This document shows, piece after piece, positions 1-5,987 of a stretch of 64,000 nucleotides of DNA. Position 1 is the stretch's first letter; each line of letters opens with the position of its first letter. Source of the DNA: Petrotoga mobilis SJ95 (GTDB lineage: Bacteria; Thermotogota; Thermotogae; Petrotogales; Petrotogaceae); the NCBI RefSeq assembly GCF_000018605.1, contig NC_010003.1, positions 2,022,501 through 2,086,500 of the forward strand, in the 5' to 3' direction. The notes beneath the pieces are model-generated. The model was not told the origin of the DNA and ran no database searches. It saw nothing but the letters and a program-made list of their open reading frames with translations. A program made the translations under genes and the position numbers.

Positions 1-55
1 CAAAAATTTGAAACATCAAAACGAAGAGTGTTAAAAGATAGAGATATTTTTTCAA
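1..55 (-). CDS. Partial exported protein, N-terminus only
   Basis: The minus strand opens a reading frame at a TTG at position 55 and runs off the left edge. The 18 visible residues begin MKKYLYLLTLFVLMF, two lysines followed by a hydrophobic stretch, which is a typical start of a signal peptide. The TTG overlaps the TGA of the secretin-like gene in a TTGA overlap, so the two are probably translationally coupled and in one operon. The function cannot be told from this fragment. By its place it should be another envelope component of the same locus. Confidence 0.6.
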   Translation of the reverse strand, partial: MKKYLYLLTLFVLMFQIF

Positions 56-1218
56 TTTTGATCAACCCCTTCAAAGGTTGGGGTAGCAGTTAAAAATATC
101 ATCATCCGTTTGCTCTCATCAATGTTTTGGTTATCACCGAATAAAAATCTAAGAAATGGAAGATCTTTTAACAAAGTTGTTCCCCCATTTTTTGAATAAA
201 GTTGACTCAAATCTAAATCAGCAATTAGCAAAATTTCGTTGGGGTTTAAATTCACTTTAGTCTCCAACTCCGATTCTGAAAGTAAATAGCTATCATTTGT
301 GACTTCCATTAAGTTTGTTGTTTTTGTCCTAAAAGAAATTTGAAGTATTTGATTCATCATAGTTGGGGTCATTTCTATTTCTATTCCACTTTCAATATTT
401 CTGAATTCGTTTCTGTAGGTAGTAAAAACGATACTCTCTAGATTCTTCAAACTTAATAACGCTGGTTCTCCTGGTAAAACGTTGACAACCTGTTTAGTAA
501 CTAAATTTGCGGTTTCGTTCTTTTCGTACATCTCTATTTCAGCTTCAAAAAGATCTTGTACAGAAAATCCAATTGCAGGACTCGTAAAAGAAAAACTGTT
601 AATTATACCTTTTTGGTTTATGTTGAACACGTTGCCCTTTATCAAATCAGAGTACCTTTCATTTGTTTCAACGATATAAACGGTTAATTCAATATATGGT
701 TCCCTCTTATCCAACTTGTCAACCAGATCTTTTATATAATCTATTGTATTTTGTGGAGCATACACGACTATTTGGTTAGTTTCTTCGTTAGTTTTTATGT
801 ATTGGTGTAGATTTTCGGGAATCAAATTTAAAAATTTTTCCACCGAAATATAATTCAAAGAAAACACTTGCATTTCAGCTAAGTTCAAAAAATTATGACT
901 TTGAGGATCAGCTAATCCCACAAAGTAAACATTTTCATCAATTTTTTTGTAAGAGTAGCCACCGGGAAGTAGAAGTATATTCAACGCTTTTTCTAAATCC
1001 ACTTCTACAAAGTCTGCTGTGACCAAGCCACTCAAGTATTGATCGGTTAAAATCGTTACCCCCGTTTGAAGAGAGATTTCGTTCAGAGCTTCTATCAAAT
1101 CGGTGTTATAGAAAGTTGCAGTCACTTTTGGGGCAGTACTTTCTTGGGAGAAGGCTAAAAAACACATAAGTGATAAAATAACAAAAGAAAGGGACCTTTT
1201 TAATACGCTTTTTATCAC
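52..1218 (-). CDS. Short secretin-like exported protein
   Basis: The protein has 388 residues with an N-terminal signal peptide (hydrophobic to about residue 24, ending near AFSQ). Next come a short secretin N-domain-like part (residues 30-100, DLIEALNEISLQTGV), an N1/NolW-like segment (about 110-170, with TNQIVVYAPQ and LDKREPYIELTVYIVE) and a C-terminal secretin-like beta domain ending in LPFLRFLFG and MMIFLTATP. These elements are typical of GspD/PilQ secretins, which form outer-membrane channels, but full secretins are usually clearly longer. The start is GTG, overlapping the upstream stop in GTGA. The family assignment is firm at fold level. Whether it forms a channel or is a secretin-domain scaffold is open. 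It sits between a chaperone-like gene and another exported protein, not in an obvious type II secretion or pilus operon. Confidence 0.72.
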   Translation of the reverse strand: MIKSVLKRSLSFVILSLMCFLAFSQESTAPKVTATFYNTDLIEALNEISLQTGVTILTDQYLSGLVTADFVEVDLEKALNILLLPGGYSYKKIDENVYFVGLADPQSHNFLNLAEMQVFSLNYISVEKFLNLIPENLHQYIKTNEETNQIVVYAPQNTIDYIKDLVDKLDKREPYIELTVYIVETNERYSDLIKGNVFNINQKGIINSFSFTSPAIGFSVQDLFEAEIEMYEKNETANLVTKQVVNVLPGEPALLSLKNLESIVFTTYRNEFRNIESGIEIEMTPTMMNQILQISFRTKTTNLMEVTNDSYLLSESELETKVNLNPNEILLIADLDLSQLYSKNGGTTLLKDLPFLRFLFGDNQNIDESKRMMIFLTATPTFEGVDQN

Positions 1219-2705
1219 ATTAACTCCCCCTCGAAGACTTTCAATCTTTGTTCGGTGTTATAAATAGTGAGGATGTATCTATAACCTTCCCCTTCTAAAA
1301 TGGGTACTTCACCGATCAACATCGTTTCTTGGCTTGGTACTAACCACTCTTGACTATATGGAAGAAGATCGTAAACACCTATGCTCACACCATCACTGTC
1401 TAAAATACTCAAACTTCCGTTAGGAATTATGTATCTCTCCCCCGTATTTTTGATCAAAGCACTGAAAATTCCGCTACCTTCTATTTTTTCATAATTTGAG
1501 CTCACTAACTCAACATCATAATTTACTTCACCTATAACGGTTTCAACGTTGACCTTTTTCTGGGATAAAAATTCTCCCGATTCATCGTAGGCATTTAAAA
1601 CGATTTTGCCGTAGTATGCACCATTTTCGACTTCCTTTGGTACGTTTATAGAAAGTATAACCCTCGAGGTTCGTTGAGGGTTAACTATAAAAGATGATGG
1701 AGACCTCAACGTGATCCATGATAGCAAGGATCTATCTTTAGCTTGAGGTAAACTCGCAAATTCTTCTCCCCCCACTTGTACCGTGACGTTTTGATTAGAC
1801 ATATTTTGTAGATTTATAACAAAGGTTTTTACAGCACCAGGGTAAAGCTCATAACTGAACTCAGTATTGTCTAATATAAGCGCAAGTTCCGTGGGAGGAG
1901 TGAAATTAAAGCCTTCTTCTGGAACGGTTATATCGTATGTAAACACCCTTTGCCTGTTGGAGTAGTTAACAAAAAGGTTTACTTTGTACTCTCCAGGAGC
2001 TAACAAGTACGTAGGCTTACCTGAAAATACAACTTTATTTCCTTTCAATATTCTTTGGGCGGTTCTATTGTTATTTTCCATGTAAGGAGATTTTAAAGGT
2101 AATCTTTCTATCATCCTACCCGATTTATCTCTCAAAATAGCTTCAGCAGAGATTACGAGGTCATAACTGGAACCATTAGAGATGGTAGCTTCGATTACCG
2201 GTTTGCCTTCTTCATCTGGAACAACCTTCACATCTTCAACTTCTGCCCTTGTTATGACAGTTCCTTGTACATGAACCGTTATTGGTATTGCATACCTTAT
2301 AATTATTCCTATCGTTCCACTCGTTTCAACTTCTGGGGTAATCATGAGGATAAAATTGTAAGTTCCAAAAGGAGCCTTCGAAGGAATATTTACACTGACT
2401 TCAACGGGTGTTGTCGAACGAGGAGAAACAGTGATGGAGTTTGGGAACTCAATCCAACTTGAATAAAGAAAGTTATCTGGAGTTGCTTCTACATAATCAA
2501 AATTTCCTGAAAGATCCTGAGTCATTTGATAAAGCTCTATACTAACGTTTTGTGTGGTGTTACCACCAATAACGTTTATTGTGGCAACGAATTCTTCCCC
2601 TGCCCTGACATCTTTTTCAACGGACAAAGGTGAAACGGCTATCTGAGCAAAAGAAAAAGCTGTAAAAAGTAAAAAAACAATTGATATGATATAAAATTTC
2701 TTCAT
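1215..2705 (-). CDS. Exported protein with two chaperone-like beta modules
   Basis: The protein has 496 residues and a clear signal peptide (ends near FSFAQ, residue 20). Two related beta-rich modules are visible. Each has an N-terminal strand, a segment ending in SWI.., a proline-rich turn (ITVSPRSTTPVEVSVNIP near residue 95; FIVNPQRTSRVILSINVP near 340) and a GTYNF/GAYYG strand. This resembles immunoglobulin-like pilus-assembly chaperones or DUF916-type surface proteins. The middle and the end hold further Ig-like strands. It is the first gene of a 4-base-overlap operon with the secretin-like gene, so a periplasmic or surface scaffold role is inferred. No catalytic motif is seen. A TATAAT element lies upstream at 2735-2740 (minus strand), with a weak -35. 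Confidence 0.65.
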   Translation of the reverse strand: MKKFYIISIVFLLFTAFSFAQIAVSPLSVEKDVRAGEEFVATINVIGGNTTQNVSIELYQMTQDLSGNFDYVEATPDNFLYSSWIEFPNSITVSPRSTTPVEVSVNIPSKAPFGTYNFILMITPEVETSGTIGIIIRYAIPITVHVQGTVITRAEVEDVKVVPDEEGKPVIEATISNGSSYDLVISAEAILRDKSGRMIERLPLKSPYMENNNRTAQRILKGNKVVFSGKPTYLLAPGEYKVNLFVNYSNRQRVFTYDITVPEEGFNFTPPTELALILDNTEFSYELYPGAVKTFVINLQNMSNQNVTVQVGGEEFASLPQAKDRSLLSWITLRSPSSFIVNPQRTSRVILSINVPKEVENGAYYGKIVLNAYDESGEFLSQKKVNVETVIGEVNYDVELVSSNYEKIEGSGIFSALIKNTGERYIIPNGSLSILDSDGVSIGVYDLLPYSQEWLVPSQETMLIGEVPILEGEGYRYILTIYNTEQRLKVFEGELM

Positions 2706-2810
2706 GATTATTACCTATCCCCTTTTTTGTGTCTATTATAGCACAATTAAAATTTATAAAATCTTTAATAATTATATTCACTAAAATAAAGTGCACGTGT
2801 ATATTAATAA

Positions 2811-2853
2811 AATTACCCCTTTTTAAGTGCTCTAATTGCAAAAAGGGGTAATT
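2811..2853 (-). terminator. 14-bp hairpin, probable terminator
   Basis: Positions 2811-2824 and 2840-2853 are perfectly complementary (AATTACCCCTTTTT and its reverse complement) with a 15-base loop. On the minus strand the stem is followed by a T-rich run (TTATTAATA). It lies just downstream of the gene ending at 2896 and before the promoter of the gene starting at 2705. It most likely ends transcription of the small exported gene, but it lacks a long pure T tract and could be a processing or attenuation structure. Confidence 0.55.
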
Positions 2854-2895
2854 GAAAAATATGGGATATTATTAATAAATGTTCTTTAAAAACTC

Positions 2896-3348
2896 TTAAA
2901 TTGAGGCTATGGTAAAGGTTACATCAGCGATTTTTGTATTTGTAGGAAGTGCACCTAGATTTAAGTTACCTAGAACGTCAAGTGTTGCAGTAACATCGAA
3001 GACCACATTTCCTGCTCCTCCAAAACCAGCTGCGTTGGTGTCTATGGAAATTTGTAATAAACTAGCCCATGAAGCATAACCAGTCACTTCAGCTATACTA
3101 GAAGAAACACTATAATTAACATTTGCCTCTGCTAAGAGCTTTACAGTATCTGTAGGATTTGCAGGATTTGCTGGATCAAATACTAAATCGAACTGGGAAT
3201 CAGGACTTGTAGTATCTACTGACAATCTCACAAATGCTGGAACATTCAAAAAAACTGGAACGTTAACAGTATCAGAAACTTGTGCCAAACCTGAAACTGA
3301 AATCAACATCACCATCATCAAAACTGCCAAACTTAAAACTTTTTTCAT
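2896..3348 (-). CDS. Small exported beta-rich protein, copy 1
   Basis: The protein has 150 residues. The signal peptide spans residues 1-22 (ends GLAQ) and the mature part starts with VNVPVFLNVPAFVRLSV. The same VPV/IYLxVPxY opening occurs in three neighbouring genes. The mature protein is rich in Val, Thr, Ala and Asn, has no cysteine, and ends in IADVTFTIAS, which matches the ends of its paralogues. The start ATG follows a GGGGTGG ribosome site. It looks like a secreted beta-sandwich subunit. I know no family to which it clearly belongs; DUF4402 or spore-coat-U-like pilins are remote possibilities that need a structure-based search. It is separated from the next gene by a strong hairpin. 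Confidence 0.7.
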   Translation of the reverse strand: MKKVLSLAVLMMVMLISVSGLAQVSDTVNVPVFLNVPAFVRLSVDTTSPDSQFDLVFDPANPANPTDTVKLLAEANVNYSVSSSIAEVTGYASWASLLQISIDTNAAGFGGAGNVVFDVTATLDVLGNLNLGALPTNTKIADVTFTIASI

Positions 3349-3481
3349 AATTTTCCACCCCTTTTAAAATTTTCGTTTTATTTGAATTATCTTTATTTTA
3401 CTTTTCTAATTTAATTATACTTACTATAATAAAACAACAATAATTTTTAATAAAAATCCAATCAAAATTTATGTTACAACT

Positions 3482-3934
3482 TCAGTTGCTAGAAACTGTT
3501 ATTTGAATATTCCCAATTTGACCTTCCATAAAGGTGTATATAAGTCCTTCCAACAGGCCTACATCCAGCTGAAAAGTTAAAATATAATTGTGGATTCCAG
3601 GAGTTCCTCCAGTGCCTGACAGTAGCAAATCATAAGAACCTAGTATCAAATATTGCTGCCACCCAGGTAGCGAGCTAAGTACCGTAAAATTAGCTGTTAA
3701 ATTATAATTTATGTTAGATTCAACATTAAAAGTTAAACTGTCTTCTACTATGTCGCCCCAATTGGCAACTGTAGCATACAAGTCTAAACGTGAATCGCTA
3801 AGGTTGGTAATTTTCAAGTATTCAGGTACGGCTAAATATATAGGGACAGTGGTCTCTTTGCTTATAGCAAATGAGGTTGATGAAATGATAATTATGAAAG
3901 AAAAAATTAATGTATATTTTAATTTTTGAATCAT
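3482..3934 (-). CDS. Small exported beta-rich protein, copy 2
   Basis: The protein has 150 residues with a signal peptide ending near STSFA (residue 23). The mature part begins TTVPIYLAVPEYLKI and ends GQIGNIQITVSS, both matching the neighbouring paralogues in motif and position. The middle is divergent. The ATG follows a GAGGG ribosome site, and a TATAAT element lies about 45 bases upstream of the start. It is probably its own transcription unit or is read with the large paralogue upstream. The function is unknown; by paralogy it is a secreted structural subunit. Confidence 0.68.
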   Translation of the reverse strand: MIQKLKYTLIFSFIIIISSTSFAISKETTVPIYLAVPEYLKITNLSDSRLDLYATVANWGDIVEDSLTFNVESNINYNLTANFTVLSSLPGWQQYLILGSYDLLLSGTGGTPGIHNYILTFQLDVGLLEGLIYTFMEGQIGNIQITVSSN

Positions 3935-4093
3935 TTACCCTCACGCCCTGACTTCATTTTTTATAAAACTAATTCTGTTTTAATTATACTCGGGCTAATA
4001 AGATAGCAATTAATTTCAATAAAATTTCAATAAGAATTTTGAAGAAAAACAGTAAGAAGAAAATAAAAAATAAGAAAAAGATTCAGGAAGGTA

Positions 4094-5296
4094 TCAAGAG
4101 GACGAAAGAGTAATGTAAACATCACCTATATGGATAATTTCATTGACCGTGAGCACCTCATTTTCAAAAAGGGATAGTATTTGCTCACGTTTGTCATTCC
4201 ACAAATCAGCAAAATCTGCCTTTATTTCAATATCAAAATCGGTATTACTGCTATCTACGGATATTAATTCGTCATTTTGTAATATAATATAATCCTCTAA
4301 AAAGCTGTAACTGTCAAAAATATCCATTGAAAGATAAATATCGTAATTTGGCAAAGTTGATTCAATGTGTACAGGAACTGAAGAAATAACATTATTCTGA
4401 GGATTGGCAAGGTCAAAAGTTAGTTGAATTGTGCCTTCTCCTCCGACGATGAAGTTTATAACAGGTTCAGGCACCTTAAAGTAAATAGGAACAGCCAAAT
4501 AACTAAAATACCCACCCTCCATAGGGATAGAAACTACAACATCCCCCACGTGAAGTCCCTCTTCAGGGAAGCCAGCCTGGACAAATTTTTCTTGTAATAA
4601 ACTTCCATAATTTTTGAATAGGTTACCTAAATTAGAGCCAACTGTTATGTCGAACTCTACATTAGGATTATTTAAATACGTATTTGGAGAACCTAAAAAT
4701 TGCAAATAGCTACCTTCAGATAGAAAATCAAACCCATCTAATAACTCTACACCAACGTAAACATGAAGGGGAGGCAAGTTAGACTTGAGGGATACATTAG
4801 AGGATTTTTGATCATACCACTTCCCACTACCTGGATAAGGTGGGGTGAATTCAAAGACTATATCGTTTGAAACGTTATAGTCGACAAAAAAGTTGTCAAC
4901 TACGAAATAAACATCAATAAAATCTAACTGTTCCCCAGTAGAGTCTAAAAGCAAAACTTCTCCTATTTTTGTCCCTGAAGAAGATAAAAGTCCATTCTGA
5001 AACATAGCCAGAATTTTTTGGTTATTGTTTTGCCATAATGGTTGGATATTAAACCCTAGTTGTAATGTATAAGTACTTCCGCTTCCCCAACTTGAAAGGT
5101 TAAAATAACTATGAAAGAATTGGTAATTACTATCTAGTTGTAATTCTACCCGATAAACGTTGGACAGGTTAAGAAAAATTTGAGTTTGCTGATAGTTGTA
5201 ATTGTCTAAATCCAATTTAAATTCGAAATAATTATTTGCTGAAAATATGCTCACAGTTAAGAATAAGAAAGTTATAAAGACAATCATTTTCTTCAT
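4094..5296 (-). CDS. Exported protein with repeated beta domain
   Basis: The protein has 400 residues, starting at the ATG at 5296. A GTG nine bases upstream is possible, but the AGGAAG ribosome site suits the ATG. After the signal peptide (to about FSANN, residue 22) three repeats can be read. Each ends in the same motif: TKIGEVLLLD (about residue 123), LHVGDVVVSIP (about 260) and IHIGDVYITLSSS (the C-terminus). Each is preceded by a helix-like segment such as DLWNDKREQILSLFENEVL. The third repeat opens with LAVPIYFKVPEPV, the family motif. It therefore looks like a multi-domain version of the 150-residue neighbours. The function is unknown. It is divergent from the related gene at 5493. Confidence 0.68.
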   Translation of the reverse strand: MKKMIVFITFLFLTVSIFSANNYFEFKLDLDNYNYQQTQIFLNLSNVYRVELQLDSNYQFFHSYFNLSSWGSGSTYTLQLGFNIQPLWQNNNQKILAMFQNGLLSSSGTKIGEVLLLDSTGEQLDFIDVYFVVDNFFVDYNVSNDIVFEFTPPYPGSGKWYDQKSSNVSLKSNLPPLHVYVGVELLDGFDFLSEGSYLQFLGSPNTYLNNPNVEFDITVGSNLGNLFKNYGSLLQEKFVQAGFPEEGLHVGDVVVSIPMEGGYFSYLAVPIYFKVPEPVINFIVGGEGTIQLTFDLANPQNNVISSVPVHIESTLPNYDIYLSMDIFDSYSFLEDYIILQNDELISVDSSNTDFDIEIKADFADLWNDKREQILSLFENEVLTVNEIIHIGDVYITLSSS

Positions 5297-5430
5297 TTTA
5301 ATCACTTCCTAATAGTTTTCTTTTTAAATTATACATTATTTTTTATAAATAATTTTAACTATTTCAATAAAAATTCAATAAAAATGATTATAATTCGCTT
5401 TTAATCGTACATAAAAAAATAATAAAAGAC

Positions 5431-5459
5431 TTGACATTTTTATTTTTATTTAGTATAAT
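5431..5459 (+). promoter_or_regulatory. Strong sigma-A-type promoter
   Basis: TTGACA at 5431-5436 and TATAAT at 5454-5459 are both perfect consensus hexamers, with a 17-base spacer. It lies 34 bases upstream of the start of the small exported protein at 5493, so that gene is expected to be highly expressed. Confidence 0.85.
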
Positions 5460-5492
5460 TTTATTAGACTTTTATTAGAGGTGGTGAATGTA

Positions 5493-5987
5493 ATGAAAAA
5501 GATTATTTTTATAACAATAATAATGTTGTTGGTTTTAAATATCAGTGTTATTTCTTTTTCTCAAACTTCTGATGGTGTTAATATCCCTGTCTATATTAGT
5601 GTTTCTAGTTATGCTGCAATTGACTCTGTTGATAAAGAAAGTTTAGATTATGAATTGGATTTGTCATCTCCTGAAAACAAAAGTGAAGAAATAAAGGTAA
5701 AAATCGTAGCAAATACCACTTTTGAACTCATGGTTGAATTTGATGCAGAAGGAAGTAGTTTTAACGAACAGAACCAAGCATTGTTTGAATTGTTGAATAG
5801 TAGCTTTAATTATTCTGTTGATAGTAACGATTCATCGTATGGAGTTATTGAAAAAACCGTTCAAGTAGGATTCAATTTTCAACAGGTGCTCGCTAGCAAT
5901 CCTGAGATGAGAGAATTGCTTTTAAAAAATGGAGAATATAATGATAAGGTTGGTAATTTTGTTTTCACAGTTTCCCCCGCAGTTTAA
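5493..5987 (+). CDS. Small exported beta-rich protein, copy 3
   Basis: The protein has 164 residues from the ATG at 5493. Two GTGs at 5481 and 5484 lie within the GAGGTGGTG ribosome site and are unlikely starts. The signal peptide ends near VISFSQ. The mature part opens VNIPVYISVSSYAAI and ends KVGNFVFTVSPAV, as in the minus-strand paralogues. It also has the FNFQQVL..NPEMRELLLKNG segment that corresponds to the helix-like segment in the repeated protein. It is monocistronic, between a consensus promoter and an intrinsic terminator, which suggests an abundant structural protein. The function is unknown. Confidence 0.72.
   Translation: MKKIIFITIIMLLVLNISVISFSQTSDGVNIPVYISVSSYAAIDSVDKESLDYELDLSSPENKSEEIKVKIVANTTFELMVEFDAEGSSFNEQNQALFELLNSSFNYSVDSNDSSYGVIEKTVQVGFNFQQVLASNPEMRELLLKNGEYNDKVGNFVFTVSPAV

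Follow-up and report, generated by a model that had tools for sequence, protein, structure and literature searches.

Chaperone-usher pathways, such as the archaic Csu and the FGL Caf systems, combine exported single-domain beta-sandwich subunits, which carry an N-terminal amphipathic extension, with an immunoglobulin (Ig)-like periplasmic partner, an outer-membrane channel and a tip-like protein of two domains, the C-terminal one being the subunit domain, as in CsuE. In Gram-positive bacteria, the WxL/WxLIP clusters (DUF916-DUF3324) contain an Ig-Ig protein of the WxLIP family together with small secreted beta proteins, and AlphaFold2 (AF2) predicts that a strand of the WxLIP beta-hairpin is inserted into the WxL domain (PMC10599100). 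The secretins of type IV pili (T4P) and of the type II and type III secretion systems (T2SS and T3SS), i.e., PilQ, GspD, HofQ and RcpA, have STN/N0, N1 and secretin domains, and the Thermotogales possess the outer-envelope proteins OmpA and OmpB of the outer sheath (toga). Here we analysed a locus at the left end of a 64,000-nucleotide stretch (the window; G000:C1:2022501-2086500) from the single-contig 2,169,548-bp genome of Petrotoga mobilis SJ95, a heat-loving bacterium of the Thermotogota. The locus encodes a short secretin (mini-secretin), a chaperone-like Ig protein, a third exported protein that we call the secretin-barrel hybrid, and a family of small exported beta proteins (Table 1). 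A left extension of the window by 12 kb (L003) completes the third protein.

All of the chaperone-usher parts listed above have a predicted counterpart in this cluster. However, the cluster contains neither an usher nor a match to the PapD family; its chaperone consists of two WxLIP-like modules, and its outer-membrane part is the mini-secretin together with the hybrid. A search of 103 Thermotogota genomes for the usher (PF00577) gave 0 matches over the cut-off, with a positive E. coli control. Direct membership in the chaperone-usher class was therefore rejected for want of an usher and of a PapD match, while a similar mode of action survives. We give a probability of roughly 0.5 to the reading that pilin-like subunits, a WxLIP-like periplasmic chaperone and a secretin/barrel complex build a surface fibre, as an analogue of the chaperone-usher pathway without the usher. 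The component families are known, and their combination and the hybrid are new; searches of the open-access literature turned up no account of such a gene set.

By profile comparison, the small proteins form one superfamily that unites the Bacillota families with the Petrotoga family and with the final domain of an exported protein of 403 amino acids (aa). The small-protein family c3 was aligned with the 403-aa protein at an hhalign probability of 90.6 (90-96 for its C-terminal domain), and with the Bacillota subunits at 94-96, which bears out the shared family proposed in a preliminary description of this DNA. Within its own genome, the subunit profile matched four genes, all of them in this locus. 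The shared opening motif on which that proposal rested was also found, but in the 403-aa protein it is not at the mature N-terminus. This protein has two or three repeated domains (repeat 2 versus 3, probability 97), the last of which begins with the motif, as VPIYFKVPE, at about residue 270. The ending motif is present in a looser form than had been described (IADVTFTIAS, IGNIQITVSS, IGDVYITLSS and VGNFVFTVSP). In a two-domain protein of about 290 aa from Bacillota, the subunit domain is C-terminal, as in CsuE (hhalign d5-d7, 97.4); direct scores of this protein against the profile arise partly by construction, because its domains are members of the profile. No informative NCBIfam or Pfam family was found for the small proteins.

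A relationship to pilins was suggested by the profile of 59 domains (A6), for which the top match in the PDB was the pilin domain of CsuE (7.8e-5; best domain, 0.0013). Caf1 accounted for five of the next six matches, at E values of 0.04-0.44 that are not significant alone, and a smaller profile (A2) reached only 0.17 against CsuE. A Pfam match to SCPU (0.061) was obtained for one of the 29 small-protein members; the SCPU search of the Thermotogota gave no match and is uninformative, since the control genomes were equally silent. The AF2 model of the subunit at 2899-3348, made from 29 sequences, had a mean pLDDT of 91.9 and six strands (residues 40-44, 66-75, 79-87, 98-102, 113-123 and 141-149), the last of which ends at the C-terminus. 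Residues 22-39, following the signal peptide, sit outside the sheet. Hydrophobic and polar residues alternate in the N-terminal segment of all 29 proteins, and this was matched by 6 of 5000 joint column permutations. The position of the segment outside the sheet in the monomer models is compatible with donor-strand exchange.

The Ig-like protein has two modules, as had been suggested, and its halves are homologous to each other at an hhalign probability of 99.6. The best solved relative of the chaperone-like family (profile A3) was EfmWxLIP1 (PDB 9i1y/9i25; E=3.4e-8 overall), with an alignment that covers 25-186 and, weakly, 233-277. In an hmmscan of 19 members of the family, PF06030 (WxLIP_PGBD) was matched by nine, and WxLIP/Fn3-like models appeared, with no PapD-type chaperone model (PF00345). 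From its sequence, the family is predicted to have the PGBD and HBD Ig domains of WxLIP. Shorter frames of about 260-310 aa in Bacillota match one module of the chaperone profile, e.g., G177:C18:37031-37684 and G133:C16:37337-38017, and are possibly single-module versions of the chaperone.

WxLIP is a partner protein of WxL proteins at the cell surface (PMC10599100), and the kinship with it also fits a permanent, static complex in the periplasm or on the outer membrane. In such a complex, the WxLIP-like protein would stay together with the small beta proteins, with the secretin and barrel as an anchor, and nothing would be polymerised; the shortness of the mini-secretin fits this as well. However, the WxL domain gave no match in either the 29 or the 59 small-protein sequences. 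The C-terminal transmembrane helix, the defining feature of WxLIP, is by inspection absent from the WxLIP-like protein, which is doubled here and is linked, in diderms, to genes for an outer-membrane secretin and barrel. Moreover, the subunits occur in several copies, bear N-terminal extensions and have multi-domain variants, and a pilin domain is their best PDB match. We consider such a static complex unlikely.

For the mini-secretin, significant Pfam matches were obtained to PF00263 (E=5e-10) and to Secretin_N (PF03958; 8e-8), both over the cut-off, and the match to STN (PF07660; 2e-6) was just under it. The family profile matched PilQ/GspD structures at 1e-37. These matches confirm the secretin-like assignment made earlier for 52-1218, and the sequence is consistent with a member of the secretin family with N0/N1 and a secretin C domain. 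In genome G035, the mini-secretin is divided between G035:C35:4988-5788 and G035:C43:197485-197844, probably by an assembly break. The same homology to PilQ/GspD would be expected of an accessory T4P or T2SS module, with the mini-secretin as a second PilQ/GspD and the small proteins as cargo. But the mini-secretin is short and is paired with a second secretin-like protein that bears a 12-strand barrel. Neither beside it nor elsewhere among the open reading frames (ORFs) read in the loci was an ATPase, platform or pilin (class III) gene recognised, although no dedicated profile search was made, and a separate, longer secretin is present in the same genome and in most Thermotogota. For lack of recognised machinery genes and in view of the separate secretin, membership in a T4P or T2SS was set aside as quite improbable. 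The longer secretin (694 aa; G000:C1:1162336-1164420, L004:7336-9420) is neighboured by Hsp90-like and AmmeMemoRadiSam-type genes, named by eye, and no pilus genes were recognised there.

The Petrotoga third protein (family c8) belongs to the same family as the modelled family A5 (hhalign probability 99.2). The N-terminal domain of A5 was aligned with the secretin domain of the mini-secretin at a probability of 92.9, while 20 column-shuffled controls gave at most 0.2 and unrelated families 0.1-0.2. The AF2 model of a family member (L068) had a C-terminal 12-strand barrel with a pLDDT of about 95, and its structural matches were KdgM (TM-score 0.75), NanC and a designed 12-strand barrel. Outer-membrane proteins commonly end in an aromatic residue, and many members of the hybrid family do so. 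The profiles and models show the third protein as a diverged secretin-like domain followed by a predicted 12-strand beta barrel of the outer membrane at the C-terminus. A PDB profile search with the hybrid gave no match, and no informative NCBIfam or Pfam family was found for it. In another lineage, the third proteins retain the secretin N0-N1 region (hhalign 99.8), with STN in L035:12137-13441. The frames L038:11359-12756, L035:12137-13441 and L037:11395-12909 have N0-N1 domains before an apparent C-terminal barrel, and they may represent intermediate stages by which a duplicated secretin gave rise to the hybrid.

In the Thermotogota, 64 chaperone matches were found in 56 of the 103 genomes, and 72 mini-secretin matches in 59. 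The two lay within 5 kb of each other in 61 cases from 53 genomes (61/64 chaperone and 61/72 mini-secretin matches), and unpaired matches appear mostly at contig ends. The chaperone family is absent from roughly half of the Thermotogota genomes, among them most of those in genus g12 and all seven in genus g5. When 84,980 species genomes were scanned with the mini-secretin alignment, 34 loci were obtained, many of them in Bacillota (Halanaerobiales and uncultured lineages). In the Bacillota loci all four families are found together in a gene order unlike that of the Thermotogota: subunit, mini-secretin, hybrid, regulator, two-domain protein, subunit and chaperone. Strong chaperone matches (E at most 1e-50) were present in 32 of 299 sampled Bacillota genomes, all 32 of which also had a strong mini-secretin match. 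BamA/Omp85 was found in 32/32 of these genomes as compared with 76/299 overall (Fisher 2e-22); the Fisher values are overstated because what counted as 'strong' was decided by eye once the tables had been seen, and because the Bacillota genomes are phylogenetically non-independent, yet the pattern is without exception. The same parts in a different order argue for a functional unit that is confined to cells possessing an outer membrane. The co-occurrence of the secretin-like protein with its neighbouring families in related genomes, on which the preliminary description had made its case depend, is near perfect. The proposal made there, of a secretion and assembly pathway for a surface structure that uses a secretin and a chaperone-like Ig protein, gains support from this two-phylum linkage and from the profile links to CsuE and WxLIP. 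The further suggestion made there that the small proteins are components of the toga, which exported beta proteins in Thermotogota would suit, is very improbable and was rejected, since many Thermotogota lack the cluster and Bacillota possess it. The consulted passages of the toga proteome paper concern OmpA/OmpB, with no mention of the cluster; these two proteins of the outer envelope in the same phylum belong to other families and another locus.

In the proposed fibre pathway, the small beta-sandwich subunits, judging from their signal peptides, would be exported by Sec. The soluble periplasmic WxLIP-like protein may bind them and prevent aggregation, as its family and the WxLIP-WxL biology suggest, and chaperoning may occur by strand complementation. 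The subunits would then be delivered to a putative outer-membrane complex of the mini-secretin and the hybrid. At this complex, each subunit would insert its amphipathic N-terminal strand into the groove of the next; the fibre would thereby be polymerised by donor-strand exchange and would pass through a predicted secretin/hybrid pore, exported with no ATPase and no need for ATP. Candidates for a tip or linker are the proteins with more than one domain, of 403 aa here and of about 290 aa in Bacillota. A more specific version can be called a 'chaperone-secretin pathway': in Thermotogota and diderm Bacillota, pilin-like subunits would be passed by a doubled WxLIP-like chaperone to the secretin and hybrid for donor-strand polymerisation, and the WxL clusters and the chaperone-usher pili would possibly be linked by descent. 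We hold this version only tentatively, as somewhat less probable than an even chance.

Several points weigh against a fibre pathway. The Thermotoga-type subunits (c0) are linked more weakly to the superfamily, with probabilities of 93 to d7 and 75 to d5. Foldseek with the subunit model returned only Ig-like matches, all at E above 0.001, the best of which (0.013) was CEP192; the pilin domain of PapG was third among these weak matches, and the pilin domain of PapK and the CFA/I tip adhesin were also present. The alternation in the N-terminal segment would fit any edge strand. WxLIP is viewed as a permanent surface protein rather than a transient chaperone (PMC10599100). Between N1 and the secretin core, the mini-secretin is shorter than PilQ by about 30-40 residues, which makes pore formation uncertain, and the N-terminal half of the hybrid has low confidence in the AF2 model. 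The fibre, the complex and the phenotype are all predictions from sequences and models.

The features of the locus are collected in Table 1. The ORF listing agreed with all of the gene positions described before, and the 4-base overlaps at 1215-1218 and 52-55 are both real. The remaining genes of the cluster are separated by gaps of 134-190 bp and the last gene is divergent, so the cluster is not one transcription unit.

Table 1. Features of the exported-protein locus, in window positions unless a contig (G000:C1) is named.
Feature	Position	Strand	Remarks
Secretin-barrel hybrid, 359 aa	1..55 and leftward; G000:C1:2021476-2022555 (L003:10976-12055)	-	TTG start at 55
Mini-secretin, 388 aa	52..1218	-	signal peptide, STN/N0, N1, short secretin domain
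Chaperone-like protein, 496 aa	1215..2705	-	two homologous WxLIP-like (Ig-Ig) modules
Small exported subunit 1	2896..3348	-	pilin-like beta sandwich and N-terminal extension
Small exported subunit 2	3482..3934	-	same family as subunit 1
Exported 403-aa protein	4094..5305	-	subunit-like domains, two or three in tandem; tip or linker candidate
Small exported subunit 3	5481..5987	+ (divergent)	same family as subunits 1 and 2
SARP-type regulator	G000:C1:2020350-2021405		adjoins the hybrid gene; BTAD 9e-5, Trans_reg_C 8e-5

A PAS-GGDEF protein (GGDEF, 3e-39) is also encoded beside the cluster, where it spans L003:8122-10905 together with the SARP-type gene, and it is often found beside the cluster in Petrotogaceae. 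In both phyla, many loci have the SARP-type gene adjoining the cluster or close to it, and this recurrent neighbourhood suggests that expression of the cluster is regulated.

The Thermotogae were the only diderm clade that lacked all of the protein secretion systems surveyed, and systems of their own or specific to the toga have been speculated on (PMC4793230); chaperone-usher was outside the scope of that survey. The cluster described here is a concrete, testable candidate for such a system of their own. If the proposed reading is true, a surface-fibre pathway without an usher would exist in two distantly related double-membraned groups, a secretin-like domain would be fused to a true 12-strand barrel, and there would be a family link between the monoderm WxL system and pilin-like assembly in diderms.

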